Origin: Spirochaetota bacterium
GTDB lineage: Bacteria; Spirochaetota; Brachyspiria; Brachyspirales; JACRPF01
Length of the DNA stretch: 64,000 bases
Reading direction: 5' to 3'
NCBI GenBank assembly: GCA_016214035.1
Contig: JACRPF010000006.1
Span: 62,001 to 126,000 of the forward strand
This document shows, one piece after another, positions 7,200-64,000 of this stretch (the stretch's first letter is position 1; each line of letters opens with the position of its first letter). Below the pieces are notes generated by a model. The model had not been told where the DNA came from. It saw only the letters and a program-made list of their open reading frames with translations, and searched no databases. A program made the translations under genes and the position numbers.

Positions 7200-7212
7200 G
7201 GCGATAAAAAAC

Positions 7213-7241
7213 ATCGTACCATAAAGGACCTTTTACCACAA
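7213..7241 (-). promoter_or_regulatory. Candidate promoter of the XylR-like regulator
   Basis: Minus-strand TTGTGG (7236-7241), 17-nt spacer, TACGAT (7213-7218). The predicted start lies about 7 nt before ATG 7199, and no Shine-Dalgarno is visible. Confidence 0.45.
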
Positions 7242-35833: not shown

Positions 35834-35951
35834 AACGCCTCCCGGACGCATAATCGTTACGGACAGTATACCAAAATTACGGCGATATCGCTACTCTTAA
35901 AACGGCAGGATGTATACTGATATGCACAAAAGCACCACGGTCGCAGTGAAA

Positions 35952-44529: not shown

Positions 44530-44701
44530 TGATCGACGTCACCGACGACCCGTGCGCGCTTCATGCTGGAAAAAACGACACCCGGATATATACTGCTGTT
44601 ACGACAGACGATAAAGAGCGTATAAGGATAAGTCCGTCTGCAATAGCATAAGGCAAACTGATGAAAAAAGCGTATACTGAATGATATTCCGGAGGTACCC
44701 C

Positions 44702-46732
44702 ATGCACCTGCGCACGTTGCTCGTTATGATCATGCTCGGTCTTCCACTCGCCGGTGAAAACGGGCTTATAGGCCGCTGGCAGTTCAACGACAGCGACGGA
44801 AAAACGGTGAAGGATGCTGTCGCGAACGGGAATGACGGCATCATCAGCGGCGGTAGAATTAAGGACGGATTTCTGCAACTTACCGGCAACGGTTACGTAA
44901 CAATTCATGAAAAAAACACAGATATAAAAAACGGAATGACGATCATTATATGGATCCGGCCTTTGTCAGTGGCAGGTCAGCGCATCATCGGGAAGCCGAA
45001 TCCCAAGCAGCCCACGTGGTCGACACCGATGCCGGGCATGTATTTATCCGACCGGGGCAGTGTTTTTTTCGGCATGTGGACGAAGGACGGCGGTAAATGC
45101 GTTATCGACGGAAACATACAGGTCCGTCAGAAAGCGTGGGTCTGCGTCACCGTCTCATGCGATGACGGCAGGGCGCAACTCTACATCAACGGAGTGGACG
45201 CAGGAAGCGCGCCGTATAAAGGGGCTATCGACATTCCTGATACGCCGCTCTATATCGGCCGGATAAAGGATAATGACAAATACTTCCGCGGCTCCGTCGG
45301 CGAAGTGCGCATGTATAATCGCGGCCTGCCGGAGGGCGACATCATGTCATATTACAACGCAGCGAAAGACGCCTACCCGAACGGGATAGCTGAACCTGAA
45401 CGCCGGAGCATTATGGTCTCGGTGAAACGCAGTCCGAAGGACGAATGGAAGGAATACAGAACCTATACGCTCGATCTCCTCGACGGCTACACACGCGGCG
45501 GAGACTCGGTTGCATACGACCGGTTTGGCGGGCTCGCCGCGAAAAAAGCCGATGCAACAGGGTTCTTTTATGCAAGGAAAAACGGCGACCGCTGGTGGCT
45601 CATTGATCCGGACGGAGGATATTTCTTTCACGCGGGCGTCGTATCGGTGGGTTCCGGCGGCGGTCCTACGGTGAAGGCGAATTTCCCGAAGCGTTTCTCG
45701 TCGAAGGGTGACTGGGCCGATCAGACGGCGGCATTGCTCAAGGAGAACGGATTCAACGGCGCCGGCGCCTGGTCGGACGCGGAGGCGCTCCGCGATGCGA
45801 AGACGAAGATCGTCTATACCATCATCAAGAACTTCATGGTGGATTTCGCCAAAACGAAAAAGCTCAACGCGCCCGGCGTGGGCCATTCCGGTTTCGTCAA
45901 GGACTGCATCCCGGTATTCGATCCGGATTTCGAGACGTTCTGCGACAATTACGCCAAGGTACTTGCCGCCACGAAGGATGAACCGTATCTGCTCGGTATC
46001 TTCTCGGACAATGAGCTCCTCACACCCGAGATAACGAAGTATCTCACGCTCGACCCGAATGATCCCGCGCAGAAGCCGAACTATGATGCCGCGAAACAAT
46101 GGCTCGCCGAACGGACCGGCAAAGCAAATCCCGGCAAGGGCGACATCAACGATGATATACGGAAGGAGTTCATGGGTTTTGCGTTCGGAAAATACTACCG
46201 TACGGTTTCCAAAGCCATTAAAAAATATGACCCCAATCACATCTACCTCGGCTCGAGGCTGCACTCGTCGGAAAAGAACAGCCCGTTCGTCTGGAAGGAA
46301 GCCGGAAAATATGTGGACGTGGTGGCCGTCAATTACTACGGCGTCTGGGGACCGGACCTCGATCAGGTTCGCGACTGGCATGACTGGAGCGGAAAGCCCA
46401 TCATCATCAGCGAGTGGTATGCGAAGGGCGACGACATGGGATTCCCGAACACCACCGGCGCGGGATGGCTCGTGAAGACGCAGACCGACCGCGGACTGTA
46501 CTATCAGCACTACCTACTGGGGCTTCTCGAATCGAAAACCTGTGTGGGCTCGCACTGGTTCAAGTATATGGATAACGACACGAACGACATGAACGCCGAA
46601 CCGTCGAACCGCGACTCGAACAAGGGCATTGTACAGGTGACCTTTGAGCCGTATACGACAGTGCTTGACAGGATGCGCGAACTCAACCGCGAGATTTATC
46701 CGCTCATCGATTTCTTCGACAGAAAAAAATGA
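44702..46732 (+). CDS. Secreted LamG + agarase-like glycoside hydrolase (paralogue 1)
   Basis: A 676-residue secreted enzyme. Start ATG 44702 follows GGAGG and begins a signal peptide (MHLRTLLVMIMLGLPLAGE). Residues about 22-215 are a LamG/concanavalin-like domain (GRWQFNDSDGKTVKDAVANGNDG...GRIKDNDKYFRGSVGEVRMYNRGL). Residues about 270-676 form a TIM-barrel hydrolase with acid/base candidate E438 (GIFSDNEL) and nucleophile candidate E571 (IISEWYAKG), plus NYYGVWGPDLDQVRDWHDWSGKP and SHWFKYMDND. The pattern recalls agarases of the GH50 kind in clan GH-A; the exact family needs a search. A close paralogue follows 35 nt downstream. First of five collinear genes. Confidence 0.82.
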   Translation: MHLRTLLVMIMLGLPLAGENGLIGRWQFNDSDGKTVKDAVANGNDGIISGGRIKDGFLQLTGNGYVTIHEKNTDIKNGMTIIIWIRPLSVAGQRIIGKPNPKQPTWSTPMPGMYLSDRGSVFFGMWTKDGGKCVIDGNIQVRQKAWVCVTVSCDDGRAQLYINGVDAGSAPYKGAIDIPDTPLYIGRIKDNDKYFRGSVGEVRMYNRGLPEGDIMSYYNAAKDAYPNGIAEPERRSIMVSVKRSPKDEWKEYRTYTLDLLDGYTRGGDSVAYDRFGGLAAKKADATGFFYARKNGDRWWLIDPDGGYFFHAGVVSVGSGGGPTVKANFPKRFSSKGDWADQTAALLKENGFNGAGAWSDAEALRDAKTKIVYTIIKNFMVDFAKTKKLNAPGVGHSGFVKDCIPVFDPDFETFCDNYAKVLAATKDEPYLLGIFSDNELLTPEITKYLTLDPNDPAQKPNYDAAKQWLAERTGKANPGKGDINDDIRKEFMGFAFGKYYRTVSKAIKKYDPNHIYLGSRLHSSEKNSPFVWKEAGKYVDVVAVNYYGVWGPDLDQVRDWHDWSGKPIIISEWYAKGDDMGFPNTTGAGWLVKTQTDRGLYYQHYLLGLLESKTCVGSHWFKYMDNDTNDMNAEPSNRDSNKGIVQVTFEPYTTVLDRMRELNREIYPLIDFFDRKK

Positions 46733-46767
46733 GCCGCGTCCTTACATTCTCTAGCGCAGGAGATCAT

Positions 46768-48849
46768 ATGAAACGAACGCTTGTGTATCCGCTGCTGCTG
46801 TCACTGCTTGGTTTTTCACCGCTTACGGCAGCATCACTCACCGACGGACTTGTCGGTCATTGGCAGTTTACCGGCAGCGACGGAAAAACGGTACGAGATC
46901 TTTCACCAAAAGGGAACAGCGGCATTATCACCGCCGGCGAGATACAGCAGGAAAATGCGGCATCATCGCTTGAGTTCAACGGCATGGATACGATGGTGAC
47001 CATCGAGGAACGCACGCCGTTTGCGCTTGCAGATAACGTGACAACCGCCGTCTGGGTGAAGCCGTTCGAGATGAAAAAGTTCTCGCTCATCTTCGGCCGG
47101 CCGCACACGAACGGCGGGTGGTCTACTCCGATGTTCGGCATGTACTTTGACAGTAAAAAGGCGTATTTCGGCACATGGAACGGAAAGGGAGAGAAGGTGC
47201 TTCTCAACAGCGGAGACGAGTTGGAAATAAAAACCTGGGTGCATCTTGCGGCTGCTTACGACGGCTCGAAAGCGGTCTTCTACGTCAACGGAGAGAAAAA
47301 ATCCGAGATGCCCCATTCGGGCGCAATCGGGTCAAACGGCATGCCGTTCTATATCGGACAGCCGCCATGGCGCACGAGTCAGCCGATACGGGCGCGCGTG
47401 GGTGAGCTCAGACTGTATAATCGCGCGCTCTCAGCTGCGGAAATCCGCTCGCTGTTTCAGGCGACTAAAAACGGTTATGATATCACCAAACCCGTACAAA
47501 AAAAGAATTTCAACGACGGCACGGTAATCGTCGAATCCCCGGGAAACACCACGAACGGAATCTGGCAGCGACGTGAAACGAGAACACTCGAGCTGCTTGA
47601 AGGATATGCGGCGAAAGCAGACACAGTTCATGTAAACAAATACGGCGGCTGGACAGACCGTCCGAAAGAAGCGGCGACGGGATTTTTCTATACGAAAAAT
47701 ATAGGCGGTCGCTGGTGGATGTTCGACCCTGACGGATACCGGTTCATACACATCGGCATGAACCAGACGGGACCGGTAAAATCCGCTGAAGCGGCGCTTA
47801 AGACTAAGTTCGGCACAAAGGAAAAATGGGCTGAGGAGACATCGCGTATTTTCTTCGAGAACGGCTTCAACGGGAAAGGCAGCGGCAGCATGAATGAGAT
47901 ACCGCTGTCACGCGCGGTGTCGCGGCCGCTCGCATACACCTGGCTCATGGGATTCATGTCATCGTTCGGTTACAAGAAAAAGCTCACCTACCCAACCGCG
48001 GGACACACCGGATTTTCCAATGACTGCATCCCGGTATTCCATCCGGACTTCGAGGCGCACTGCAATGAATATGCAAAAAGCGTCACCAACTTCGTAAACG
48101 ACCCGTATCTGCTCGGTATATTTTCCGACAACGAACTTCAATGCTCCATTGATCTGCTCGACCGGCATCTCTCGCTCGATGTGAACAACCCGAATCTCAA
48201 ACATGGATACGACGCGGCTGTTGCCTGGCTGAAGGACCGTCTGGGACACACTGACCTGAGCAGATGCACACGGCGGGACCGCATGGAATTCATCACCTTC
48301 GTCTTCGAACGATACTACCGCATCGTTTCGGCAGCATTGAGAAAGTACGACACCAACCATCTCTATATCGGTTCGCGCATCTGTTACAGCACGCAGTTCG
48401 ACAATCCGTTCTTCATGAAAATGACCGCGAAGTACGTCGATGTGATCTCGATCAATTACTACGGCGTCTGGGGACCGGACCTCGACCAGGTGGCACGCTG
48501 GCACGAGTGGAGCGGTAAACCGGTCATCATCACCGAGTGGTACGCGAAGGCTGAGGACACGGGACTTGCGAACACGCACGGCGCCGGATGGCTCGTGCAC
48601 ACACAGAAGGACCGCGCGGCGTACTATCAGCACTATGTGATGGGGCTCCTTGAATCGAAGACCTGCGTTGGCTGGCACTGGTTCAAGTACCAGGACGATC
48701 CCCTGGAATCGACAGCGCTCGATGCCGCGGGCGGCGCCAACAAAGGAATGTTCGACGGGAAGTACGAACCGTATCAGCCGCTGCTCGACTGGGCGCGTGC
48801 GGTGAATCGCGAGGCATATCCGCTTACGGAGTTCTTTGATGCACGATAA
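46768..48849 (+). CDS. Secreted LamG + agarase-like glycoside hydrolase (paralogue 2)
   Basis: A 693-residue secreted enzyme with the same layout as its upstream neighbour: signal peptide (MKRTLVYPLLLSLLGFSPLTAA), LamG domain (about 25-220) and TIM-barrel domain with candidate catalytic residues E456 (GIFSDNEL) and E590 (IITEWYAKA). Shared blocks such as INYYGVWGPDLDQVARWHEWSGKP and LLESKTCVGWHWFKYQDD show recent tandem duplication. The two differ in loops, for example SMNEIPLSRAVSR replacing AWSDAEALRDA, so substrate or bond choice may differ. Start ATG 46768 follows AGGAG; the upstream gene ends 35 nt earlier. Confidence 0.82.
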   Translation: MKRTLVYPLLLSLLGFSPLTAASLTDGLVGHWQFTGSDGKTVRDLSPKGNSGIITAGEIQQENAASSLEFNGMDTMVTIEERTPFALADNVTTAVWVKPFEMKKFSLIFGRPHTNGGWSTPMFGMYFDSKKAYFGTWNGKGEKVLLNSGDELEIKTWVHLAAAYDGSKAVFYVNGEKKSEMPHSGAIGSNGMPFYIGQPPWRTSQPIRARVGELRLYNRALSAAEIRSLFQATKNGYDITKPVQKKNFNDGTVIVESPGNTTNGIWQRRETRTLELLEGYAAKADTVHVNKYGGWTDRPKEAATGFFYTKNIGGRWWMFDPDGYRFIHIGMNQTGPVKSAEAALKTKFGTKEKWAEETSRIFFENGFNGKGSGSMNEIPLSRAVSRPLAYTWLMGFMSSFGYKKKLTYPTAGHTGFSNDCIPVFHPDFEAHCNEYAKSVTNFVNDPYLLGIFSDNELQCSIDLLDRHLSLDVNNPNLKHGYDAAVAWLKDRLGHTDLSRCTRRDRMEFITFVFERYYRIVSAALRKYDTNHLYIGSRICYSTQFDNPFFMKMTAKYVDVISINYYGVWGPDLDQVARWHEWSGKPVIITEWYAKAEDTGLANTHGAGWLVHTQKDRAAYYQHYVMGLLESKTCVGWHWFKYQDDPLESTALDAAGGANKGMFDGKYEPYQPLLDWARAVNREAYPLTEFFDAR

Positions 48850-48876
48850 AAAACATCACGCCGGGGAAGCATCATT

Positions 48877-50625
48877 ATGAAACCGATGCATGCGGTATTT
48901 CAGGCAATCATGCTCATGATCTTCACCGGCGCGATCTTCGCCGCAGATATCGCTCCGGGAATATCGATTGCCGACAACGGCATCATCACGCTCGGCGGAG
49001 TATCGATATTCGCCGTGGTGAGCGAAACGGGAACCGCGCCGACGTTTCAGGCGGACTCGTCGATTGCGCCGGGTCCGGGATTCCCCGCAGCACGTGACGG
49101 TGAAATCGAACTGCGCGGCACTTTCACCGTATCAAAATCGAAACAAAAATTGAGCTTCTCCGAGACGGTGACCAAGAAAGCTGATGGTATTATACTAACC
49201 TACCGCATCGAACAGGTGCCGGCGGAATTTACCGATGTGCGCCTCGCGTTCAGGATGCCGCTGTCATCGGCGGGAAGACCGGTTATAGCCGACGGCAAAC
49301 AGGTGCTGCTTCCACGCGAAGCGAAAGAGTTTCAGATCATGCCTGACACGTCGCTTACGGAGCTCATCCTTCCCGCTGCAGGCGGCAGCGTCCGCGTTAC
49401 CGGGCCGTTCATCGCGTTCATGCATGACCGGCGGAAGACGAAGAACGACTGGTTCGAGGCACGCGCGAAGTTCACCCGCGACGGTACCGCGGCAGCGCTC
49501 ACCGTGACCGTGAATATGATCAATGACACGAACAGCAAAGGAGCTGCTATGAACGACAACAATTACATGGTGGAAGCTACCGCTGCGGTCGGCGACAAAA
49601 AGAAGACCGGTGATAAGAAATACATGCCGCCGCTTGCGGGTAAGAACATCACCGTGAGCGAAAAGAACATGTACTCGCCGGGACGCGACCTCGTATATTA
49701 CGAATCGTCGCGAACGCCGGGGCTCGAGCTCGCGATGCTTGTCACGAAACCGGAGAAGCCGTCTCCCCTTCTCGCCACGACGCACGGCTGGCATATGGAC
49801 ATCGGCGGATTTTCATATCTCGACAAACCGGCCGGCGCATATTTCCGCGTGACGGTCGACATGCGCGGGCGCAAATATTCGCAGGGAAAACAGGACTGCA
49901 ACGGCTATGAACTTCACGATGTCTACGACGCCATCAATTATGCGAAGATACTGTACCGCGAGTACATCACCAATCCCGATGTCATCTACTTCGATGCGGG
50001 AAGCGGCGGCGGCGGGAACGCTTACGGCATCATCGGCAAATTCCCTGACCTCTTTGCGGCCTGCACGGCGCTCTGCGGCATCTCCGATTACGCGTTCTGG
50101 TATTCCAACGACACAAAGGGCGAATTCCGTGACGAGATGGACCCGTGGATAGGCGGTTCTCCCGACGCTAAACCGATGGCGTACCGTTCACGGAGCGGAC
50201 TTACCATGGTCGAGAACCTCATCACACCGCTCTATATCGCGCACGGTGACACGGACCCTCGTGTAACAGTTGACCATGCACGACGGTATGTTGCACGCGC
50301 GAAAGAACTCGGCAAGGAATCACTTGTGACATATTATGAACTTCCCGGCGTAGGCGATGCCGACCACTTCGGCAAGGCCACCAAGGAACAGCGCGATGCC
50401 ATCGGCCGCGGGAGCGAAGAAAATCGGCAGAAGCACCGGACGACGGTCATCATCCCGCGCAAAGGCAGGATGATCGTGTGCGGTTATCTTGTCACCAAAC
50501 AGTTCGCCGTATATCTCGACTCTGTTGACAAAGTGGCGGTGCTTGATTACGACATCGACGCGGATTTATTTACCGTCACCTGCGATGTGCCGTGTACGCA
50601 TGAGATCAAAAAGTTCTTCAAATAG
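48877..50625 (+). CDS. Secreted alpha/beta hydrolase (esterase or peptidase-like)
   Basis: A 582-residue protein with a signal peptide (MKPMHAVFQAIMLMIFTGAIFA). Residues about 25-270 are strand-rich and unassigned. The C-terminal about 290 residues look like an alpha/beta-hydrolase of the prolyl-oligopeptidase or acetylxylan-esterase kind, with candidate triad S376 (DAGSGGGG), D460 (HGDTDPRV) and H497 (DADHFG). The nucleophile elbow is unusual: the residue two before Ser is Ala, not Gly. Family members deacylate polysaccharides or cleave small peptides. In this operon a role in removing ester groups from a polysaccharide is plausible but unproven. It follows the second glycosidase by 27 nt. 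Confidence 0.72.
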   Translation: MKPMHAVFQAIMLMIFTGAIFAADIAPGISIADNGIITLGGVSIFAVVSETGTAPTFQADSSIAPGPGFPAARDGEIELRGTFTVSKSKQKLSFSETVTKKADGIILTYRIEQVPAEFTDVRLAFRMPLSSAGRPVIADGKQVLLPREAKEFQIMPDTSLTELILPAAGGSVRVTGPFIAFMHDRRKTKNDWFEARAKFTRDGTAAALTVTVNMINDTNSKGAAMNDNNYMVEATAAVGDKKKTGDKKYMPPLAGKNITVSEKNMYSPGRDLVYYESSRTPGLELAMLVTKPEKPSPLLATTHGWHMDIGGFSYLDKPAGAYFRVTVDMRGRKYSQGKQDCNGYELHDVYDAINYAKILYREYITNPDVIYFDAGSGGGGNAYGIIGKFPDLFAACTALCGISDYAFWYSNDTKGEFRDEMDPWIGGSPDAKPMAYRSRSGLTMVENLITPLYIAHGDTDPRVTVDHARRYVARAKELGKESLVTYYELPGVGDADHFGKATKEQRDAIGRGSEENRQKHRTTVIIPRKGRMIVCGYLVTKQFAVYLDSVDKVAVLDYDIDADLFTVTCDVPCTHEIKKFFK

Positions 50626-50699
50626 GAATAAGAACATACGCCGCCCGTTTCGACGCGACTGCCGTCCGATATCGCTGACTGTAACATCAGGAGATTCAC

Positions 50700-53105
50700 A
50701 TGAAACTGACCGCGACCCTCTGCGCCGTGATGACTGCGGCATGCATCACCGGAGCGCCGCTCTGCGGCATCACCTACCATGTAGCCGTGAACGGCAGCGA
50801 CGCGAATCCCGGCACAGCGCAGGCGCCGTTTCGCAGCATACAGAAAGGCGCCGATACCGCACAGCCGGGCGACACGGTGTTCGTCCATGAGGGTGTGTAT
50901 CGCGAGCGGGTCTCTCCGCCCCGCGGCGGCGAGTCTGACAGACCTATCGTCTATATGGCCGAACCGGGAAAGAACGTAGTCATCAAAGGATCCGATATCT
51001 GGAAACCGGCATGGGAGAATGACGGCAAGCTTCACTGCGCCGTTCCCGACGAAGCCATGTTCACCGACGACTGCTATCATGACGACAAAAATCCTTTCAG
51101 GGTTGAGATGTCATCAACGCCGTTCGGCCGCGACGGCCGCAGGGAATTCGAACGAAAATTTGTCACCGAGACGAGATTCAAGGACATCGTTTTCACGCTC
51201 GGGCAGGTGTACGTGAACGGCAGGATGTACCGTCAGGTGCCGCTGAAGAACGAAGCGAACGATGAGACCGGGACCTGGTGGTATGATCGCTCCAGCGGAA
51301 AATTATACGTGCATTTCGCCGGCAATCCGTCAACGAAAACCGTGGAGATCTTGACGCGCCGACGCGTCTTTGCACCGCATCGACGCGGACTCGGTTACAT
51401 CCACGTCATCGGCTTCGTGATGGAACACAGCGGCAATAATTACCCTACCAATTTCTGGGAAAAGGAACATCGCGAGTGGCAACAGGCGGGCATTCTCGGG
51501 ACGCGGTCGGGTCATCACTGGCGCATCGAACGCAATGTCTTCCGCCTCGGCATGGTGGGCATCGACGTGGGCTTTGAATCGCTCGCGGACCAATCCCGCG
51601 GCGACATCGAACGCGGCGAGAACGGAAAAAACAGCGAGGGCGCCGTGTTTCATGAGATCGTGAGCAATCACATCGTGGATATCTTCGGCCCGGGCACCGC
51701 CGGTTCAGATGCGCGGGGAATACGGTTCATCGGAAACATCATCGAACGGAATAATACGCTGGGGTTCGCCGGCATGAAGCGCTTCGAGACGGCAGGCATC
51801 AAGCTGCATCGACCGGACAATGCGCGCATCATCGGAAATCTTTTCAGGAGCAACGCCTGCGCCGGTCTCTGGCTTGATCAGGGCTCGGGCACCAACACGA
51901 TCATCGCACGGAACATCTTCATCGGCAACCGTCAGGGCTTCGACCTGGAGATAGGCAATATGTGCGCGGCGTCATGCCTCCTTGCATACAACGTCTTCAT
52001 CGGAAACACGCACGAGGCGGTGAGTTCACGCGAATCCGGCGGGCTTGTGGTCATGAACAACTTCATCGCCGGATCCGAATACGGATACCGTCAATCCGCT
52101 GATGTCAAACGCGATCACGGTAAAAAACCGCCGTGGTCGTGGACCGCGCTCGAACACTGGTGCTACGGCAACATCTTCACCGCCTGCGGTATAGCGGTCG
52201 CCATGCTGCCCCCGGGTTTCAGCAACCGCCCCGACCTCATCGACGGACGGCGGTTTGACGGTAACGTCTACGGCACTGCGGCCGGCATATTTAAGCTCGG
52301 CGGTGAGAAAGAATCAATCGGCTTCGATGTGTGGCGTGAAAAATGGAACGGATACAATAAGGGCAGTGATTGTGAAACGAAAAGCGCCGCGGGAGCGTCG
52401 ATTGACTATGCATACGACGATGCATCGATTACCCTGACCTTGCGCTATGATGCGCAACCCATGTCCGCAGTATATCATCATGAAAAAGTGACAGCAGAAG
52501 TGCTGGGCGGCGCGGAAGGAAATAGTGCCGGCCCGTTCCGCACGCTCACGCGCGGTGAAAACGTATTTCCGCTCTGGAAAGGAGTGCGCCCCCTGGCGGA
52601 ATATGAGCTCCCGTACGGGGGAAGCGAACTTGTTACGTCGCCCGATGACGCATTGCTCTTACCGTCGTTTAACCCGGATGCAGAACTCATCGTAAACGGC
52701 GGCTTCGCGGGGATGGACGGATGGACTGCGATGACCACCGGCGGCGCGAAGGCGTCGTTCAGTGCCGACAAGGTGCTCGCCGTGGTCACCGAGAAAGACG
52801 GCGGCAAGGAATGGGACATCCAGGTAAAGCAGGATAAGATACTCATTGAACGCGGAACGTACGTGTTCTCGTTCAAGGCGCGCGCCGACGCCCCGCGCAG
52901 GATGAAAGCAGCCGTCATCCAGGATGCACTCCCGCAGCCGCAATACTGCGGCATCGTGCCCGACATCACATCTGACTGGAAGGAGCATCGCGGTACATTT
53001 ACGATGAGCGTTCGGCAGACGAACGCACGTGTACAGCTCAGGTTCGCAACGTACGGCACCGCCGCGGTGCAGGTGAGAAACGTTTCGCTGAAACGGATAC
53101 GCTGA
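50700..53105 (+). CDS. Secreted right-handed parallel beta-helix protein (candidate polysaccharide lyase/hydrolase)
   Basis: An 801-residue secreted protein. After a signal peptide (MKLTATLCAVMTAACITGAPLCG) the segment YHVAVNGSDANPGTAQAPFRSIQKGADTAQPGDTVFVHEGVYRE is the typical start of pectate-lyase-like beta-helices (DUF1565/Beta_helix). Repeating short strands (RIIGNLFRSNACAGLWLDQG, TIIARNIFIGNRQGFDLEIGN, NVFIGNTHEAVSSRESGGLVVMNN) mark the coil turns over about residues 240-560. The last about 140 residues (LIVNGGFAGMDGWTAM...RNVSLKRI) resemble a CBM4/9 carbohydrate-binding domain. Catalytic residues are not identifiable by eye. AGGAG precedes ATG 50700. Fourth gene of the degradative operon. 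Confidence 0.78.
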   Translation: MKLTATLCAVMTAACITGAPLCGITYHVAVNGSDANPGTAQAPFRSIQKGADTAQPGDTVFVHEGVYRERVSPPRGGESDRPIVYMAEPGKNVVIKGSDIWKPAWENDGKLHCAVPDEAMFTDDCYHDDKNPFRVEMSSTPFGRDGRREFERKFVTETRFKDIVFTLGQVYVNGRMYRQVPLKNEANDETGTWWYDRSSGKLYVHFAGNPSTKTVEILTRRRVFAPHRRGLGYIHVIGFVMEHSGNNYPTNFWEKEHREWQQAGILGTRSGHHWRIERNVFRLGMVGIDVGFESLADQSRGDIERGENGKNSEGAVFHEIVSNHIVDIFGPGTAGSDARGIRFIGNIIERNNTLGFAGMKRFETAGIKLHRPDNARIIGNLFRSNACAGLWLDQGSGTNTIIARNIFIGNRQGFDLEIGNMCAASCLLAYNVFIGNTHEAVSSRESGGLVVMNNFIAGSEYGYRQSADVKRDHGKKPPWSWTALEHWCYGNIFTACGIAVAMLPPGFSNRPDLIDGRRFDGNVYGTAAGIFKLGGEKESIGFDVWREKWNGYNKGSDCETKSAAGASIDYAYDDASITLTLRYDAQPMSAVYHHEKVTAEVLGGAEGNSAGPFRTLTRGENVFPLWKGVRPLAEYELPYGGSELVTSPDDALLLPSFNPDAELIVNGGFAGMDGWTAMTTGGAKASFSADKVLAVVTEKDGGKEWDIQVKQDKILIERGTYVFSFKARADAPRRMKAAVIQDALPQPQYCGIVPDITSDWKEHRGTFTMSVRQTNARVQLRFATYGTAAVQVRNVSLKRIR

Positions 53106-53131
53106 GATATGTCCTGACCGGGAGGAACGAT

Positions 53132-55714: not shown

Positions 55715-55782
55715 GCACGCACGGGAATAACTGCCATCTTCATGTTTCAACGATACTGCCGCGAGATGATACGCCTATCGCA

Positions 55783-56640
55783 TTATGCTTCAGATGTCTC
55801 TGCGTTATATAATTCCTTCCACCGGCTTGGAGAAACACCGGCATACCGTTTAAAAGCCGCCGAGAAAGCGAACATGTTTGCGTAGCCGGTCCGGTACGCC
55901 ACCTCATCCATCTTCATATCGGTGATTGTCATAAGCGTTTTGGCATGCTCCATCCGCAAGTGTGTCAGTTTTTTCATGGGACTTGCCTTTGTTTCATCTG
56001 CACAGATACGCCGCAGATGGGTGGGACTTACTCCGGCCAGCTCCGCAAGTGATTCCGTATCCCAGTCCCTGTCGAGCTGACTTATGACCTTCCGCCACAG
56101 CGGCTCAAGTCGTCCCGAAACACCCTTGTCAAAAAGCAGTTCATCGAGCCACGAGGTGATGAGCTCTACGCAGGCGTGTTCAATTTTTATCGGCACGTTC
56201 TGTCTGCCCATGCCCTTCCAGCAGAGTTCACGCACGGCTCCTGCAGCGGCGATGGAATCCGACGTCAGCCGTTGCGGATTCTGAAGCATGCTGCTTTTTG
56301 CATAGCGGGAATCATCGGTAAAGAATATCCAGAAAAAGCTGAACGGTTTTCCGTTAACGCTTCTGGCAGCGTGTGCATGCGCCTTCGGCTGACAGACAAC
56401 CATGCCGGGAATGAACGGCGACCATGTCCCTCCGCAGTAGACCTCACCCGCTCCGGCATAACATGCGGCGATATGATGCACTGACGGATTCGTGCGCGCC
56501 GAATAATACCCTTTGCCGGGATTTCCGAAACCCGCATGCTCGATACCGGCCGCCATGAGCGCCCGGCAGTCGTTCGAACTCCGGGTGAACTGGCGGGTGC
56601 CGATGCCAAGCATGTTCGTTTCGCGTATGTCTTTGTTCAT
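55783..56640 (-). CDS. AraC-family transcriptional regulator
   Basis: A 285-residue regulator with a cupin-type sensor domain (about 30-150: NPSVHHIAACYAGAGEVYCGG, FIPGMVVCQPKAHAHAA) and a C-terminal double helix-turn-helix (about 185-280: LAELAGVSPTHLRRICADETKASPMKKLTHLRMEHAKTL, MDEVAYRTGYANMFAFSAAFKRYAGVSPSRWKELY). It converges on the five-gene operon and diverges from the glycosidase at 56729, so it probably controls one or both. ATG 56640 has only a weak GGA upstream; Met 10 is an alternative start. Confidence 0.88.
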   Translation of the reverse strand: MNKDIRETNMLGIGTRQFTRSSNDCRALMAAGIEHAGFGNPGKGYYSARTNPSVHHIAACYAGAGEVYCGGTWSPFIPGMVVCQPKAHAHAARSVNGKPFSFFWIFFTDDSRYAKSSMLQNPQRLTSDSIAAAGAVRELCWKGMGRQNVPIKIEHACVELITSWLDELLFDKGVSGRLEPLWRKVISQLDRDWDTESLAELAGVSPTHLRRICADETKASPMKKLTHLRMEHAKTLMTITDMKMDEVAYRTGYANMFAFSAAFKRYAGVSPSRWKELYNAETSEA

Positions 56641-56728
56641 ATCAGATATTCCAATAGCGTCATGTCTATCTTATATATAAACCATGAAATTGACAACGCT
56701 GAATGAAACCGCCCGTAAGGATACCGGA

Positions 56729-58735
56729 ATGAAAACGGATACATCATCACCAAAGCTCACCCAGCGCCAAACCGTGCTCAGGGCTATGGAACTTCGTCCT
56801 GCTGATCCATGGCCGCGCGGAACAGGTCATGTCCCGCTGGGAATACCCGGAAGTCCGATTGCGCAGAAAGGATATCATGAACCCGGCGGAAGTTTCAGTC
56901 CGGCTCCGGGCAGTTTCGGCATATCAGTCTGGGTCATCGGGAATGACGGAAAGCGTATAGCCACAAGTGACGATATCCCGCTTGAGGAAATCACGCAGCG
57001 GTATGTCTGGACCGATTCCAGCCCGATGCCGTCGCTGGTTACGGAAACACCATATTACAAATGCACATGGTCGCTTGATGCAGGACGATGGACATTCGAA
57101 CTTGAAAAGCGCGCTGCAGATAATTCGATTGCGATACTGATTCGCAGTGTCGGACCTACCGGTGGGCCGGTGGAATCACTTCATACTGATGAACGACAGA
57201 TCATCATCAATCACCGCTGGGTGGTTTCCTTGGAACAATCAGTCTGCCGGGTGTATCTTGGCGATGAAGAGACACCTGGGTGGCAGACCGCAATGAATCA
57301 GCTTAGTGAATGGACAGGCGCAAACGGCTGGGGATATGCGCGGCTGATACTATCTGCGGATGCTTCACGTCTCACATTGACCGTGCGCGATACCGCACCG
57401 CAGTTCAGAAGTCCGCTGACGTTCAGCACGGTGAAAACCGCCATTGAGCTTGATATCCCCGATAAAAAATTCGCCGCATCACTCAACGCGCAGGCGGCCA
57501 ATCTCATGATGGGTTTTATCGGTAAGCAGACATGTCCCGGCGAGCCGATCAACTACCCGCTGGCGTGGGAACGTGACGGCGCTTATTCGGTCGTCGCAAT
57601 GGCGCGATGCGGACAGATGCGTGTGGCCATGGACCTTGCCGAGTACTTCGCCGAGAACGATTTTTTCGGCGGATTCGGCGCTGAGGGCGACGCTCCCGGT
57701 TCAACGATAAACGCGATTGTCACGGTTGCTATTCTTTCCGGCGATCGCGATTTTCAGGAACGGATGTGGCCGCATGTACAGCGTAAGACCCGGCTCATCG
57801 CCGAAATGCTCGACGCGAAAAAACCACTCTATAAACCGTGGATAGGACCCATCGTTCCCGCTCATATCGAAAAGGATTGCATTCCCGTCATCTGTCAACC
57901 GGAAAAAGACGGACTGATCATCGGTTCAATGGATCTGCATTATCCGGCACTCTATATCAACGCGTTTTCGTATCGGGGGCTCATGCAGGCAAAGCGACTT
58001 GCCGATGTCCTTGGTAAGCCGAAGGAAGCCGATGAGTTCACACAGCTTGCCCAAAAAATAAGAAACGCGTGGCTTGCACATTTTGAGGATAAGGAATACT
58101 ACAACGAGCGCACCTTCATGTCCGCCCTCTGGCCCACCTGGGTCATCGATACTGATTTTGCGCCGTTCCAAAATGCTATCGCATCACGATGGGAAAAGAT
58201 ACAGAAGCACGGCACATACCCTACCCGTCCGCTCTGGACGTACTTCACCGCCGCCGAAGCTCACCAGTGGCTATTTATCGACAGGCCTGATTACGTATGG
58301 AAAACCCTGGAATATTTTTTCAGGAATCAATGTTCACCGGGACTGTTTACCTATTGGGAAGGTAAAGGCGAGGAAAACTCCTTCGGCGGATATGAAAACA
58401 TCCGTGGCTGGGTTAATCCGCCGCACGTGACACCGCATTACTGGACGGCCGCTGAGATGCTGCTCCTGCAGATCGACATGCTCACGTATGTGAATGAAGC
58501 CGGAGACGAACCCGTGCTCGTCATCGGCGGCGGGGTTCCGTCAAGCTGGCTGAAGCACACGCTCACGGTGAACGGCGTAAATACCAGTGTCGGTAAAGTT
58601 GATTGGATGTATCGCAACAACAGAATTGATGTTCGCATCCATGGGACAAAGAAATGCCGCGTACGGGCCGGTACCGGATTCAGCGAGTTTACGGAAATCC
58701 ATGTAACCATGTGTTCCCCTATACCATCGAACTGA
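56729..58735 (+). CDS. Cytoplasmic six-hairpin-type glycosidase
   Basis: A 668-residue protein without a signal peptide. Start ATG 56729 has AAGGA 7 nt upstream; an earlier ATG at 56684 has no such site. The N-terminal about 230 residues are strand-rich. The C-terminal about 420 residues have the rhythm of an (alpha/alpha)6 barrel as in GH15/63/78/106-like enzymes: ANLMMGFIGKQTCPGEPINYPLAWERDGAYSVVAMARCGQ, LYINAFSYRGLMQAKRLADVLGKPKEADEFTQLAQKIRNAWL, NPPHVTPHYWTAAEMLLLQIDML. The acid in LAWERDG is a catalytic candidate. Cytoplasmic location suggests it acts on imported oligosaccharides. The AraC gene diverges from it. Confidence 0.75.
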   Translation: MKTDTSSPKLTQRQTVLRAMELRPADPWPRGTGHVPLGIPGSPIAQKGYHEPGGSFSPAPGSFGISVWVIGNDGKRIATSDDIPLEEITQRYVWTDSSPMPSLVTETPYYKCTWSLDAGRWTFELEKRAADNSIAILIRSVGPTGGPVESLHTDERQIIINHRWVVSLEQSVCRVYLGDEETPGWQTAMNQLSEWTGANGWGYARLILSADASRLTLTVRDTAPQFRSPLTFSTVKTAIELDIPDKKFAASLNAQAANLMMGFIGKQTCPGEPINYPLAWERDGAYSVVAMARCGQMRVAMDLAEYFAENDFFGGFGAEGDAPGSTINAIVTVAILSGDRDFQERMWPHVQRKTRLIAEMLDAKKPLYKPWIGPIVPAHIEKDCIPVICQPEKDGLIIGSMDLHYPALYINAFSYRGLMQAKRLADVLGKPKEADEFTQLAQKIRNAWLAHFEDKEYYNERTFMSALWPTWVIDTDFAPFQNAIASRWEKIQKHGTYPTRPLWTYFTAAEAHQWLFIDRPDYVWKTLEYFFRNQCSPGLFTYWEGKGEENSFGGYENIRGWVNPPHVTPHYWTAAEMLLLQIDMLTYVNEAGDEPVLVIGGGVPSSWLKHTLTVNGVNTSVGKVDWMYRNNRIDVRIHGTKKCRVRAGTGFSEFTEIHVTMCSPIPSN

Positions 58736-58781
58736 TTATACTCACAGGCGTTAATCGATATCGCCGTACGTGCAACGCGTC

Positions 58782-58809
58782 TTGACGTTGCGGCGTATAC
58801 CGTTATACT
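58782..58809 (+). promoter_or_regulatory. Promoter of the YbaK gene, with dyad over the -35
   Basis: TTGACG (58782-58787), 16-nt spacer, TATACT (58804-58809). A dyad GCAACG (58772-58777) / CGTTGC (58786-58791) overlaps the -35, suggesting a repressor site. The leader is about 50 nt with no strong Shine-Dalgarno. Confidence 0.55.
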
Positions 58810-58866
58810 GCCATACGTTCACCGAGAATACAATCCATCGCTGATTCGGACATAGGCGCGGCACAC

Positions 58867-59361
58867 ATGACAAAAACCAACGCAGCCCGGTTTCTTGATA
58901 CGCTGGGCATACATTATGAACTCATTGAATATCATGTACATGAAACGGACCTGAGTGCCATCGCCATTGCCGCATCGCTGGGGCAGAATATCGATCAGGT
59001 ATTCAAGACGCTGGTACTTTTCGGCGATAAGACAGGCGTTATCGTGTGCATAATACCGGGCAAAGAAGAGGTTGACCTGAAAAAAGCGGCGAAAATATCC
59101 GGCAATAAGAATGCCGAAATGGTTCCAGTGAAGGAGCTCTTCGACCTCACCGGCTATATCCGCGGTGGCTGTTCACCGCTCGGTATGAAGAAGAAATATC
59201 CGACCTATATCGATGAAACCTGCATACTCTATGATTTCATTTTCATCAGCGCCGGTATCCGCGGCATGCAGTTGAAGATGAATCCGAGTGACATCATCTC
59301 CAGCGCGTCGTGCACGACAGCCGATCTTGTCATGCAGAACCGCACTAACGCCACTGGCTGA
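58867..59361 (+). CDS. ybaK: Cys-tRNA(Pro)/Cys-tRNA(Cys) deacylase YbaK-like
   Basis: A 164-residue protein of the YbaK/EbsC family, which hydrolyses mischarged Cys-tRNA(Pro) in trans. The family core is clear: LGIHYELIEYHVHETDLSAIAIAASLGQNIDQVFKTLVLFG, then VCIIPGKEEVDLKKAAKISGNKNAEMVPVKELFDLTGYIRGGCSPLGMKKKYPTYID, with the conserved Lys in VFKTLV and the GGCSP loop. It is a housekeeping gene inserted in the degradative region, with its own promoter. The gap to the next gene holds two dyads (59367-59433). Confidence 0.93.
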   Translation: MTKTNAARFLDTLGIHYELIEYHVHETDLSAIAIAASLGQNIDQVFKTLVLFGDKTGVIVCIIPGKEEVDLKKAAKISGNKNAEMVPVKELFDLTGYIRGGCSPLGMKKKYPTYIDETCILYDFIFISAGIRGMQLKMNPSDIISSASCTTADLVMQNRTNATG

Positions 59362-59366
59362 TATTA

Positions 59367-59399
59367 ATATTGCCATCATTACTTGAATAATGACAATAT
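59367..59399. terminator. Hairpin after ybaK
   Basis: Imperfect inverted repeat: arms 59367-59380 and 59386-59399, 12 of 14 paired with a 5-nt loop. It is AT-rich and lacks a U-tract, so it may be a weak terminator or an operator; I cannot decide. Confidence 0.45.
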
Positions 59400-59419
59400 A
59401 GTCCAAGTCTATGCCTAAC

Positions 59420-59433
59420 ATAGTAGCTACTAT
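59420..59433. promoter_or_regulatory. 14-bp perfect palindrome at the promoter of the 801-residue protein
   Basis: ATAGTAGCTACTAT overlaps the start of a TATACT -10 box (59431-59436). It is placed to act as a repressor site. No good -35 is visible. Confidence 0.5.
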
Positions 59434-59456
59434 ACTGTAACGTGAGGAACATCACC

Positions 59457-61862
59457 ATGTGGAAAACAATATCTCTCGAGATAACGCTGAAACCCTTCTG
59501 TTTCGATATGAGCGATGCTGGATTCGAAAAGACCGGCCTTAAACTTTTCAGACAATGGGAACCGCTGTGGATAAACGGCGGCGATACGCAGCTCATGTTC
59601 TGGACCGGCGACGGCTCCGAACTCCTGGAATACACCGGCGACCTGAGCGACACGATGGAATACGCGCGCTACTGCGGTTCTGCCAACATGTGGGATGAAC
59701 ACACAAGCGATAAACCCAGGGAAACGCAGACGATGCATCAGGTGACACGTCTCTTTATGGAGAAACCGCCGGTATGGACCTATGCGGACCTCAAACGATT
59801 GATCTCGGTGCTCAAAAAGACATACCGCAGCCGCTATGGACGCGACCTCAAGATCGGGACCACCTTCGACCCGGGGCCTGAATTCGCGCGTTCGGACTTC
59901 AAGTACAACAGACATCCTGAAATTCTCAGCAATATGCTCGGGAAAAAAATATTTATCTTCTGCTACAGCGTGCTGAACGCGGACAAATACCGCTACGCCG
60001 CATATCCGGACGGAATACCGCAGGGTGAATCGTTCGGAACGTTCATCGGGAAACAGTCGCAGATATTTCTCCGCGATATCGATTTCGATTTCATCTGGTT
60101 CTCGAACGGATTCGGTTTCGGCACCGAGACATGGGGCGTCACCGGCGCTGTTTTTGACGGCGAAAAGTTCTATCCCGACAATACACGCGAAACAGGTAAA
60201 AAGGTCTTCCAGTTCTGGAACGATTTCCGCAAGAATTGTCCGGACTACCCCATCGAGACACGCGGCACGAACCTTACCACCGGCATCGACCTTGCCAGCG
60301 ACGCCGTTCCGCTCCGTGAGATATATAACGACATAAAAAATATCGAAGCCCCGCCGAACTCTCCATGGGCGGCGCTCGATCACAATTTCGGCCTCGAGCT
60401 TGCCGGTATGCTTTCACACATCGCTGAACTGCCTCCGGGAAAAGGATATCCGTTCCGCCTCTACACGCATGACCCGTGGTGGCTGAACTCACCGTGGCTT
60501 GACCGCTATGACCGTATGCCGCATGACATCTATATGCCGATGGCGGTATCACGCCTGAACGCGAACGGCGACACCGAAAATCCTTCACGCCTGAATCTGC
60601 TATCCGTTGACGACACCTGGGGTAACCTCCCCGATCAGGTCCCGCAGGAAGCGCTGCCGCATCTCATCGATGCATACCGCACCGCGCCGGATCAGGCAGG
60701 ACCGCTCGTGTGGCTCTATCCGTTCGACGAATATCATGATCATGTGGCGAAAGGCCAACGACTGGAAGAAGTCATGTTCGGTGACTTTCAGATCATCGGC
60801 GCTATCAATGAAGGGCTGCCGCTGAATACGGTAGTTTCCACGCGGAACTTCAACAATATGCCGCTTGATAAGATCGCCGGCCGCATACTTATAACGCCGA
60901 CACTTGTATCCGACGAGACTGTCGACCGGCTCACCGCGTTTGTCAAACAGGGCGGCAAGGTACTGTTCTACGGTCCTGCACACGGTGAAAAGATAGAACA
61001 GCTGCTCGAACTTGAACCTGCGGAACCTATCTCCGGTGAATTGGAAATACCGGGATGCGGCAAAGTCCGACATACATCCGTTCATTCCGGCGGACCGATA
61101 GACCGGAAGCTTCGAAAAGACGCACAAGCTGAAACGCTTCACGAATATGTTCAGGGAAATGTCCGTCGTCCTGCTGCAGCCAGAAACGGGAATATCATCT
61201 GGCTGCGCGGCACCAATTCCTTCAAGAAGGTCAGCCGCAGTGCGGAATATCTTCCCAGAACTGATTACTTCTTTGTGGAAGGTATGTACCGCGATCTGCT
61301 GAACCATTTCGGCTGGCAATTCGATTTTGTAAAATACGACAGCGCCGTACTCAGCCCCCGCATAACGGTCCGCATCCACGACAATGCGTTCTATTACGCC
61401 GGCTTCGGCACGAACTCGACGGTAGTTCAGCATCTGTCAACGCCGGACGGCGTTCCGCTTTTCCGCGGCAGGGATGTCATCCTCGAGAACGGATACGGCG
61501 TGTATCAGACGGAGAAAGTGTCAAATCTGGAAGCGAGGATATTCGTGCGCGGAGAAAACGGCGTCATGCAGTGCCGTGAGATGACACATGAGAATATCGG
61601 CGAGAACCGGCGCATGCAGATAAGCGGATTGAAAAATGCCACGGTGACCTTCCGGCCTACCGGCACCAACGCAGAAACGGTGATATTCACGAAGAATGCG
61701 CGCCTGCACACGATCTATGAACCAAGCGACTACACTTTTGAAACAACATCCGATGCATTCGGCGTAAAATACATCGTCCATAATGTCACCGGGGAGCTCT
61801 GCGTCACCTGGGGGGCCCGGGTGAAAGAATATTTCCCCGGGGATTTCTCAGTCAAAGGATGA
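59457..61862 (+). CDS. Large cytoplasmic protein, probable glycosidase-related, function unknown
   Basis: An 801-residue protein without a signal peptide. Start ATG 59457 has GAGGA about 8 nt upstream; GTG 59442 lies before that site. The N-terminal half (about 1-470) reads like a TIM-barrel enzyme: LEITLKPFCFDMS, LKIGTTFDPGPEFARSDF, FIWFSNGFGFGTETWGVTG, FRLYTHDPWWLNSPWLDRYDRMPHDIYMPM. A segment about 470-560 (AGRILITPTLVSDETVDRLTAFVKQGGKVLFYGPA) matches the class-I-amidotransferase-like trimerisation domain of GH42-type beta-galactosidases. The C-terminus is all-beta. No firm catalytic pair is assigned. It may act on imported oligosaccharides. Confidence 0.65.
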   Translation: MWKTISLEITLKPFCFDMSDAGFEKTGLKLFRQWEPLWINGGDTQLMFWTGDGSELLEYTGDLSDTMEYARYCGSANMWDEHTSDKPRETQTMHQVTRLFMEKPPVWTYADLKRLISVLKKTYRSRYGRDLKIGTTFDPGPEFARSDFKYNRHPEILSNMLGKKIFIFCYSVLNADKYRYAAYPDGIPQGESFGTFIGKQSQIFLRDIDFDFIWFSNGFGFGTETWGVTGAVFDGEKFYPDNTRETGKKVFQFWNDFRKNCPDYPIETRGTNLTTGIDLASDAVPLREIYNDIKNIEAPPNSPWAALDHNFGLELAGMLSHIAELPPGKGYPFRLYTHDPWWLNSPWLDRYDRMPHDIYMPMAVSRLNANGDTENPSRLNLLSVDDTWGNLPDQVPQEALPHLIDAYRTAPDQAGPLVWLYPFDEYHDHVAKGQRLEEVMFGDFQIIGAINEGLPLNTVVSTRNFNNMPLDKIAGRILITPTLVSDETVDRLTAFVKQGGKVLFYGPAHGEKIEQLLELEPAEPISGELEIPGCGKVRHTSVHSGGPIDRKLRKDAQAETLHEYVQGNVRRPAAARNGNIIWLRGTNSFKKVSRSAEYLPRTDYFFVEGMYRDLLNHFGWQFDFVKYDSAVLSPRITVRIHDNAFYYAGFGTNSTVVQHLSTPDGVPLFRGRDVILENGYGVYQTEKVSNLEARIFVRGENGVMQCREMTHENIGENRRMQISGLKNATVTFRPTGTNAETVIFTKNARLHTIYEPSDYTFETTSDAFGVKYIVHNVTGELCVTWGARVKEYFPGDFSVKG

Positions 61863-61894
61863 ATGCGGGCTTTGCGGCGCAATGCATATCGGCA

Positions 61895-63073
61895 TCAGCG
61901 TGATGATGCTGCGCCTTCCTCGTATCGTTTCACTATTTCGTACAGGCGGTCGAAGAACTGATAGTTACGCTCCGGTGTACCGTCACCCCTGGGTATTACA
62001 GTCCTGCTCGCCAGTATCTCGTTCGGGTCGAACTCGGTTGAACCCCATTGACCATGCGGATAGAGCATCACCCGTACGTCGAATTGCGATGCAACGGTGT
62101 AAGACTTCTGAAAATAATCGGCCTCAAACGGCGCTAACGCGATGAACTCATTCCACTGCGCGGACGAAACCCTGTTCGTGTAACATGCGCTGATGAACCG
62201 CCGCGGTGTCATCCGGGCGAGACCATACCGTGAACGGTATCCGCTGTCGAGCGGTTTGTCCAGCCATTCATGTGCGATGGGCGTCTGCGACCATTCATTG
62301 ATGAGTACAGGCTTGGAAGTACGCTGTTTCAGGTAGCCGAGTATCGCGGCAAGTTCGTCCGCGGACCTCAGATGCGCATGTATATCGATAGCATCTATGT
62401 CAGCATTCGTCATCGCCCATTCGAGAAGCGGCATGAGATGGGTATCAAGCTTTGCGGGTATCGTTCCGTCGATCTTTTTTTCAATACCGTAGAACCCCGG
62501 CGAGACGATGCACAGATTCGACAGCGCGGGATTGCGGCGTTTCTCAGCCTGCCCGCGAGCCGCAAGCGCATTGTAAAACCGGATCACACGCGATGTTTTA
62601 TCCGGCCCCGCTGCGAGATCGGCATCGCTTCGTTCGAACGTGGGTTCATTATCCAGAGTCAGATAACAGATATTCGTTCCGAAGAGACGGATAATCTCAG
62701 CGAAATGATCGATATGCTGTTTCCATTCCGGCGAATCCTCCGACGGCAGCGCCTCGCCCTGCTTTGCCCATAAAAATGGCGTGACGACGACCGTAATACC
62801 TTCCTTCGCGTACGTACTGATATCGATGAGATTACGCGGAGACGGGTCAAGACGGTCGTTGGTGTGTATCGTTCCGTTGCGATACTGCCCGAACCACTGC
62901 GTCAGGAATCTTCCGAACAGCAATACCCGCACCGCTTTCGGGCGTAACTCTTTTGCCGTTGCCGGCAGTCGCGGATTATGAAGTCCCGGCAACGGTTCGG
63001 CCCATGACGCTGATATTGCCGACACCGCAAACACTATAAATGCCAGTATTCGCCGCAAACATGACATATTCAT
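61895..63073 (-). CDS. Secreted clan GH-A-like glycosidase
   Basis: A 392-residue secreted enzyme with a signal peptide (MNMSCLRRILAFIVFAVSAISASWA). The rest looks like a TIM-barrel hydrolase with acid/base candidate E143 (LTLDNEPTF) and nucleophile candidate E260 (VLINEWSQT), spaced as in GH5/GH39/GH30-like enzymes. Strand-end motifs GITVVVTPFLWAKQG and DAIDIHAHLRS support the fold. No carbohydrate-binding domain is attached. A consensus promoter (63101-63129) with a palindromic operator-like site (63075-63088) lies immediately upstream; the start codon has no clear Shine-Dalgarno. Confidence 0.78.
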   Translation of the reverse strand: MNMSCLRRILAFIVFAVSAISASWAEPLPGLHNPRLPATAKELRPKAVRVLLFGRFLTQWFGQYRNGTIHTNDRLDPSPRNLIDISTYAKEGITVVVTPFLWAKQGEALPSEDSPEWKQHIDHFAEIIRLFGTNICYLTLDNEPTFERSDADLAAGPDKTSRVIRFYNALAARGQAEKRRNPALSNLCIVSPGFYGIEKKIDGTIPAKLDTHLMPLLEWAMTNADIDAIDIHAHLRSADELAAILGYLKQRTSKPVLINEWSQTPIAHEWLDKPLDSGYRSRYGLARMTPRRFISACYTNRVSSAQWNEFIALAPFEADYFQKSYTVASQFDVRVMLYPHGQWGSTEFDPNEILASRTVIPRGDGTPERNYQFFDRLYEIVKRYEEGAASSR

Positions 63074-63074
63074 T

Positions 63075-63088
63075 TTCCACCGGTGGAA
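63075..63088. promoter_or_regulatory. 14-bp perfect palindrome (candidate operator)
   Basis: TTCCACCGGTGGAA sits in the predicted 5' leader, between the promoter at 63101-63129 and the start codon at 63073. A protein bound here would block elongation or initiation of the secreted glycosidase gene. Confidence 0.6.
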
Positions 63089-63100
63089 TGTGATGTGTTC

Positions 63101-63129
63101 ACTATAAACCGCCGGCGGGCATGTGTCAA
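63101..63129 (-). promoter_or_regulatory. Consensus promoter of the secreted glycosidase gene
   Basis: Minus-strand TTGACA (63124-63129), 17-nt spacer, TATAGT (63101-63106). Confidence 0.7.
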
Positions 63130-63150
63130 TCCCGAATCGGATGATCGCTG

Positions 63151-64000
63151 TCAGCGTTTCTTCGGACGTGCCGGTTTCCCGGTGCGTGCCGATTCGTATA
63201 TCGCATCCATAAGATCGCTCTGGATGATGCCGTTACGCGGTGACGTGCGGGCCTGTGCCCGACCGAGAACTGCATCGATGAAATTATCGTTGGGCGTCTG
63301 CGCCTTTTCATCGATTGCCGGATACTTCACATCCTTATCGCCTTTGGCGATTTTTATCCAGCTCCCGTTCCAGCCGTTGATATCGATCTTCCCGTTATCG
63401 AAGATGAACGTCATGAACGAATCCGCTTTCGGGCAGTTGCCGCTCACCGCGATTGCGGCGACAACACCGTTGGAGAACTTAACGTTGATGCTCGAGTTGA
63501 TATCAACCGGTGTCCCGGAATTGTCGATGAATGCGAACACCTCATCGATATCCGACTCTACCGACCAGCAGAGACTGTTGAGCAGATGCGCACCGCTGTC
63601 ATATGCCTGCCCTCCTCCGGAAAGCGCCGGATCCTGCCGCCATTTGCCGATGGTGGCCTTCTTCCAACCCTGTGAAAGATATCCGGTCACCATTTCCAAT
63701 GTACCGAGCGTGCCGTTCCGTATGGTCTCACGCACGTGATAGAACTCCGGCGTGCACGGCGTGTTATAGCCGATAACGAATACTTTTTTCGTACGCTCAA
63801 CTTCGGCGGCAAGTTCACGCGCCTGACCGGCGTTGGTGACCATCGGTTTTTCCATGAACACATGACAGCCCGCTTTGAGCGCCTGCATGCCGTGATCGAA
63901 ATGCATCGTATGCGGCGTGACGATGGTGACGGCAGTCGGCTTTGCCTTTGCATACATAGCCGCCGGGTCGGTGAATACCTCCGGCCGGGGCTCATATCCC
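63151..64000 (-). CDS. Gfo/Idh/MocA-family oxidoreductase, N-terminus cut by window edge
   Basis: At least 282 residues are visible. The frame continues through the internal Met at 63957 (…EPRPEVFTDPAAMYAKAKPTAVTIVTPH) to the right edge, so the Rossmann glycine motif is outside. The family signature EKPMVTN follows the strand HVFMEKP, and the second domain has ALSGGGQAYDSGAHLLNSLCW, with the conserved Asp and His near the active site. These NAD(P)-dependent enzymes oxidise sugars, inositols or sugar acids. Its place beside the polysaccharide genes suggests a role in metabolising released sugars. It ends 77 nt before the secreted glycosidase gene. Confidence 0.9.
   Translation of the reverse strand, partial: GYEPRPEVFTDPAAMYAKAKPTAVTIVTPHTMHFDHGMQALKAGCHVFMEKPMVTNAGQARELAAEVERTKKVFVIGYNTPCTPEFYHVRETIRNGTLGTLEMVTGYLSQGWKKATIGKWRQDPALSGGGQAYDSGAHLLNSLCWSVESDIDEVFAFIDNSGTPVDINSSINVKFSNGVVAAIAVSGNCPKADSFMTFIFDNGKIDINGWNGSWIKIAKGDKDVKYPAIDEKAQTPNDNFIDAVLGRAQARTSPRNGIIQSDLMDAIYESARTGKPARPKKR

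Follow-up and report, generated by a model that had tools for sequence, protein, structure and literature searches.

A compact operon-like unit in a Spirochaetota genome joining two LamG–GH50 hydrolases to a PL17-type lyase

Gene content of the locus and its host genome

The window analysed here is a stretch of 64,000 nucleotides, positions 62,001–126,000 of contig JACRPF010000006.1, from a Spirochaetota genome whose 22 contigs total 5.2 Mb. Gene kinds were assigned from open reading frames together with Pfam, NCBIfam and PDB sequence searches, and statements about the whole genome rest on searches and on selected stretches of it. Towards its end, the window carries the following genes.

44681–46732, plus strand: P1, secreted hydrolase with LamG and GH50 domains, 683 residues (Pfam/NCBIfam, PDB search, alignment, tree)
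46729–48849, plus strand: P2, secreted hydrolase with LamG and GH50 domains, 706 residues from the first ATG (Pfam/NCBIfam, alignment, tree)
48877–50625, plus strand: P3, secreted alpha/beta-hydrolase, S9- or esterase-like (Pfam/NCBIfam, PDB search)
50700–53105, plus strand: P4, secreted right-handed beta-helix protein, GH120-like, with a C-terminal CBM_4_9 domain (Pfam/NCBIfam, PDB search)
53132–55714, plus strand: P5, secreted PL17-type lyase, 860 residues (profile, fold, alignment)
55783–56640, minus strand: AraC-family regulator (Pfam/NCBIfam)
56684–58735, plus strand: (alpha/alpha)6-type glycosidase-like protein, non-secreted, 683 residues, family uncertain (Pfam/NCBIfam, PDB search)
58867–59361: YbaK, aminoacyl-tRNA deacylase, housekeeping
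59442–61862, plus strand: non-secreted protein of 806 residues from a conserved family (searches, predicted fold)
61895–63073, minus strand: GH-A-like secreted protein with the motifs LDNEP and INEW (Pfam/NCBIfam)
63151–64149, minus strand: Gfo/Idh/MocA-type sugar dehydrogenase, running past the window end at 64000

The first five open reading frames are collinear on the plus strand (44681–55714) with intergenic gaps of 35, 27, 74 and 26 bp, and all five products begin with a hydrophobic, signal-like N-terminus. The first gap assumes that P2 starts at 46768, where an AGGAG ribosome-binding site marks the likely true start, and not at the first ATG (46729). The searches bear out an earlier, preliminary description of this row as two LamG proteins, an esterase-like protein, a beta-helix protein and a heparinase II/III-type lyase, and they support its view of P1–P5 as a polysaccharide-degradation operon. 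Judging from its arrangement, P1–P5 is a tight, coherent, operon-like unit, and its co-transcription, predicted from the spacing, is probable; scans for promoters and terminators gave little above the level of shuffled sequence. The set was not found together elsewhere among the relatives' loci, and the enzyme families in it, each known before, are combined here in a new way.

The unit is smaller than the interval 44702–64000, which had been described as a single locus. That view stands for the five operon-like genes; the interval as a whole is not one unit, because the AraC gene, which had been missed, and YbaK lie inside it and the genes at its end run on the minus strand. The two non-secreted glycosidase-like genes (56684–58735 and 59442–61862) were confirmed, and the secreted GH-A protein and the dehydrogenase are indeed present, albeit on the minus strand, opposite to P1–P5. 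The genes at 56684, 59442 and 61895 may or may not share a pathway with P1–P5. The AraC gene is transcribed convergently with P1–P5 and divergently from the gene at 56684, and its product is a candidate local regulator. Regulators in which a LacI-type periplasmic-binding domain is joined to an AraC-type helix-turn-helix occur at 5982–7214 of the window and at L006:17936–19261.

As had been claimed, no uptake gene is annotated within 44702–64000, and no SusC/SusD pair of the kind that marks a Bacteroidota-type polysaccharide utilization locus (PUL) lies among the genes of 44681–64149. A check of the flanks for transporters did, however, turn up an MFS gene (32118–33254) and a LysM/solute-binding protein (33818–35851), 9–13 kb upstream of P1–P5. 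Genome-wide, there are 13 matches to SBP_bac_1 and at least one TonB-dependent receptor. LysM is fused to an ABC-type solute-binding protein in about eight genome matches, in frames of 656–709 residues, L223:7577–9592 being a fusion of this kind; one such fusion lies beside an ABC permease gene. Secreted carbohydrate enzymes are scattered through the genome and include, downstream of the window, a GH5 enzyme (L007:15382–16932) and a GH141-type beta-helix protein (L006:15153–17846). A protein of 946 residues with CBM35/CBM6 (L007:12428–15265) has a weak C-terminal match, below cut-off, to a Por-secretion tail.

The GH50 pair and its relatives

P1 and P2 are 45% identical and belong to GH50 by domain homology and by the GH-A glutamate pair, for which alignment with Aga50D gives E445 as candidate acid/base and E578 as candidate nucleophile in P1, with E469 and E603 as their equivalents in P2. 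The best PDB match of P1 (residues 228–681, 1e-63) is BpGH50 (5t3b), from a Bacteroides plebeius porphyran PUL, which has a similar GH50 domain and likewise misses the agarase Arg/Glu loop; it differs in having no LamG domain, which P1 and P2 carry, and in sitting on a long tree branch. BpGH50 has no activity on agarose or neoagarotetraose (NeoDP4) (PMC8260779). The beta-agarases Aga50D (4bq2) and 6xj9 (GH50_1 type) share with P1 and P2 the GH50 domain and the two catalytic glutamates, whereas P1 and P2 have LamG, fall in a separate clade and lack the agarase subsite pair (R752/E757 of Aga50D), whose columns hold Met and Arg in P1 and Ser and Gly in P2. The pair is also absent across the P1/P2 clade. 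The term agarase-like, which had been applied to both proteins, therefore holds at the level of the family and no further. Nor is GH50 confined to agar, as beta-1,3-glucanase activity is known for PaBglu50A (GH50_2) and Fsa16295Glu (GH50_3) (PMC11079163); Fsa16295Glu keeps the Arg and Glu (R413, E417) that P1 and P2 are without.

The contrast in the agarase pair exists within one genome, since six of the seven other GH50s examined there (L100, L102, L103, L104, L105 and L106) keep a TGR..GEN-type Arg and Glu. The seventh, L101, has Ile and Glu at these positions, and a GH50 from another genome of the same family (L108) keeps both residues. One of the genome's GH50s outside the window lies near a TonB-dependent receptor gene (L102:13489–15888). 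At L007:7910–10683 (C6:167910–170683), a GH10 gene overlaps a GH50-like gene whose catalytic columns read Asp/Asp, not Glu/Glu, and which may be misaligned or inactive.

A quick GH50 tree, with SH-aLRT support only and some long branches, includes the agarases as pieces copied from printed alignments and leaves out PaBglu50A and Fsa16295Glu. In this tree, P1 and P2 are split from the partial sequences of Aga50D and 6xj9 by a branch with a support of 97. The two show neither mark of a GH50_1 agarase, placement with the agarases or the Arg752/Glu757 pair. Their clade (support 99) has nine entries, drawn from Verrucomicrobiota, Planctomycetota, Kiritimatiellota and a single Oxalobacteraceae bin. 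The nearest neighbours of P1 are L020/L024 and those of P2 are L025/L029, which are different Verrucomicrobiota sequences, so the two are not sisters; a recent tandem duplication as their origin was ruled out on the same grounds. This uncharacterised clade is the most interesting part of the unit.

What accompanies GH50 genes of this kind in other genomes? In 80 loci with GH50 relatives, neighbouring genes were clustered and the cluster representatives identified, the counts being raw and taken over phylogenetically uneven loci. The 23 Hymenobacter loci contain UxuA (16), an SDR/UxuB-like cluster (16), GH2 (20), GH3 (20) and SusC (21), and the eight Pedobacter loci contain GH2 (8), GH3 (7), GH88 (6), a PF05426 lyase (5) and UxuA (5); GH10 is also found among neighbours of P1/P2 relatives. 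The representatives of UxuA and D-mannonate oxidoreductase score above the curated cut-offs of NCBIfam, whereas that of GH2, closest to beta-glucuronidase, falls below its cut-off. A loose N-x-K pattern, which we take to be a glucuronidase feature, was matched in all 38 members of the GH2 cluster. Outside the Bacteroidota the signal is thinner, with PF05426 in two Verrucomicrobiaceae loci and heparinase II/III in L023. Both L023 and L034 hold a GH50 alongside heparinase II/III-type genes, together with a cluster-11 gene that is sulfatase-like as judged by its N-terminus alone. Because the glucuronate neighbourhoods are mostly from Bacteroidota, above all Hymenobacter and Pedobacter, they represent few independent events, and the glucuronate context may not extend to the LamG–GH50 clade of P1 and P2.

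The Hymenobacter and Pedobacter PULs (L042, L068 and others) resemble our unit in that a homologous GH50 stands beside an esterase and uronate-processing genes. Unlike P1–P5, they have SusC/D, GH2, GH3 and UxuA/UxuB, in place of which our unit has P3–P5. Under the filters used, the 80 loci gave no homologue of P3 or P4 and one weak match to P5. A literature search at title level recognised no work linking GH50 to glucuronan loci.

The lyase and the other enzymes of the unit

A profile of P5 and 16 relatives matches the PL17 structure 9irq at 8.6e-77. The AlphaFold model of P5 has a mean pLDDT of 80, with most of the first 186 residues poorly predicted, and its best ten Foldseek matches are all PL17 (TMt 0.73–0.77), so that sequence and two-domain fold both place P5 in this family. 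N407, Y461 and H600 correspond to N201, Y258 and H413 of Alg17C (4nei), with which P5 shares its fold, and are invariant in all 17 sequences. P5 differs from Alg17C in an extra N-terminal domain (residues ~1–180; 53132–53686) and in having Ile (I408) in place of the mannuronate-contacting His202 expected of PL17_2; at this column, P5 and its 16 relatives have Ile in 13 of 17 cases and, in two cases each, His or Trp. Parts similar to the N-terminal domain recur in three other proteins of the genome (L114, L115 and L116) at 24–33% identity.

PL17 is polyspecific: every known PL17 alginate lyase lies within PL17_2, and outside subfamily 2 there are an Opitutaceae glucuronan lyase and a hyaluronan lyase (PMC5966431). 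We liken P5 to OPIT5_27565, an Opitutaceae glucuronan lyase of PL17 subfamily 1, by published description only. In Smlt2602, replacement of the residue at the His202 position by Phe (H208F) raised glucuronan activity 28-fold, and H208A gave no gain (PMC4765187). The gain is thus partly specific to Phe, and Ile, as in P5, falls outside the published variants.

Orthologues of P5 (44–54% identity) occur in genomes of the same phylum as that of L024, a Verrucomicrobia bin, with no GH50, P3 or P4 gene adjoining. Genes in the vicinity of P5 relatives include a UxuA homologue (L171) and a GH2 of the cluster found around the GH50 relatives (L175). The idea that P3–P5 travel with GH50s was ruled out by these orthologues together with the 80 GH50 loci.

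P3 has a candidate triad (S376, D460 and H497) consistent with a putative esterase role. The beta-helix of P4 aligns with XylC (3vst) over ~435 residues (8e-34), and D393 (nucleophile) and E417 (acid/base) match XylC D382 and E405, which we take to be the catalytic residues, as in GH120. P4 adds the CBM_4_9 domain, and its activity is a prediction.

Substrate of the unit and a neighbouring protein family

From homology, conserved residues and the neighbourhoods of relatives, we consider it an evenly balanced proposition that P1–P5 serves the extracellular breakdown of a glucuronic-acid-containing beta-glycan, and we infer its substrate, order of action, regulation and import along the following lines. 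The target would be 4-O-substituted glucuronic acid within a beta-linked, probably acylated backbone. P3 would remove acyl groups, P1 and P2 would cleave beta-linkages by the retaining GH-A mechanism, and P5 would carry out beta-elimination at glucuronic acid, with Asn407 neutralising the carboxylate, Tyr461 acting as acid and His600 as base. P4 may trim beta-xylosyl-type ends, and the products would be imported through transporters encoded elsewhere and may be sensed by the adjacent AraC protein. The uronate-containing substrate suggested in the preliminary description is thus retained as a reading of P5 and of the many P1/P2 relatives that sit with glucuronate genes.

The fate of the products in this host is less conventional. 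Searches of the genome returned no match to UxuA and none above cut-off to GH88/GH105. With the common route of glucuronate use thus absent, free glucuronate would have to take another one; its use through the Uxu route was accordingly dropped. The single KDPG aldolase is not pathway-specific. Conceivably, a lyase acting in exo mode would make GH88 unnecessary.

Tentatively, and with somewhat more doubt than conviction, we propose that the GH50 clade of P1 and P2, whose members come from several phyla, forms a functionally distinct subfamily with glucuronic-acid-containing beta-glycans, not agar, as its substrates, and that the operon couples two of its members to a PL17 lyase of matching non-alginate specificity. 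Beta-agarase is the common annotation of GH50 genes; should the proposal be right, many such annotations in bacteria from soil, freshwater and gut would be in error, and a candidate substrate would be gained for a GH50 subfamily still unassigned and for a non-alginate group of PL17, both enzyme types being present in P1–P5 on one probable transcript.

Glucuronic acid may instead be one component, beside xylose, rhamnose or amino sugars, of a sulfated or branched acidic polysaccharide of greater complexity, for example ulvan, a glycosaminoglycan or an exopolysaccharide of bacterial origin. The GH120-like P4 points to xylose, the GH50, heparinase II/III-type and sulfatase-like (by N-terminus) genes of L023 and L034 form a comparable assortment, and the genome has many sulfatases (33 matches, ~31 genes) scattered over many contigs. 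None of these sulfatases lies within P1–P5, however, and the genome gives no match over cut-off to GH88/105, an enzyme that is normally needed after ulvan or glycosaminoglycan lyases, which leaves this reading unlikely, if a serious one. Degradation of alginate, with P5 as an oligoalginate lyase and the GH50s acting on co-occurring neutral glycans, strikes us as improbable: the best-matching solved PL17s are alginate lyases, but the replacement of His202 in P5 and most of its relatives weakens the case, as does the confinement of known PL17 alginate lyases to PL17_2, with glucuronan and hyaluronan as substrates of other clades (PMC5966431), and no second alginate-lyase family is found among the operon genes.

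Red-algal agar or porphyran, with P1 and P2 as beta-agarases, is a still poorer candidate, and the galactan substrate proposed in the preliminary description is not upheld. Characterised GH50s are mostly beta-agarases, and the sulfatases and agarase-motif GH50s elsewhere in the genome mean that the host may meet agars. Against this stand the missing subsite residues and the separate clade, the inactivity of the nearest solved relative on agarose (PMC8260779), and the poor fit of a uronate lyase within the operon. Moreover, many P1/P2 relatives belong to Hymenobacter and Pedobacter, genera mainly from land and fresh water. Least probable of all, and very much so, is that the five genes are neighbours recruited separately without a shared substrate, as might be read from the unlinked, mostly Verrucomicrobiota relatives of P1, P2 and P5 and from other GH50, PL17-like and sulfatase genes that stand isolated in the genome, against which speak five consecutive genes with gaps of 26–74 bp, signal-like N-termini throughout and the recurrence of GH50 with a heparinase-type lyase in L023 and L034.

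Apart from the glucuronic-acid-glycan unit itself, the 806-residue protein (59442–61862) belongs to what may be a further candidate for a new glycosidase family. Neither Pfam and NCBIfam profiles nor PDB sequences match it, and its relatives, at 39–53% identity, occur in 41 of 289 genomes from the phylum of the L024 genome. Its model (pLDDT 87) finds GH164 beta-mannosidases as best folds at 8–9% identity, and the predicted fold resembles GH164/GH42-type enzymes. Two of the relatives adjoin L-fucose/L-arabinose isomerase-like genes.
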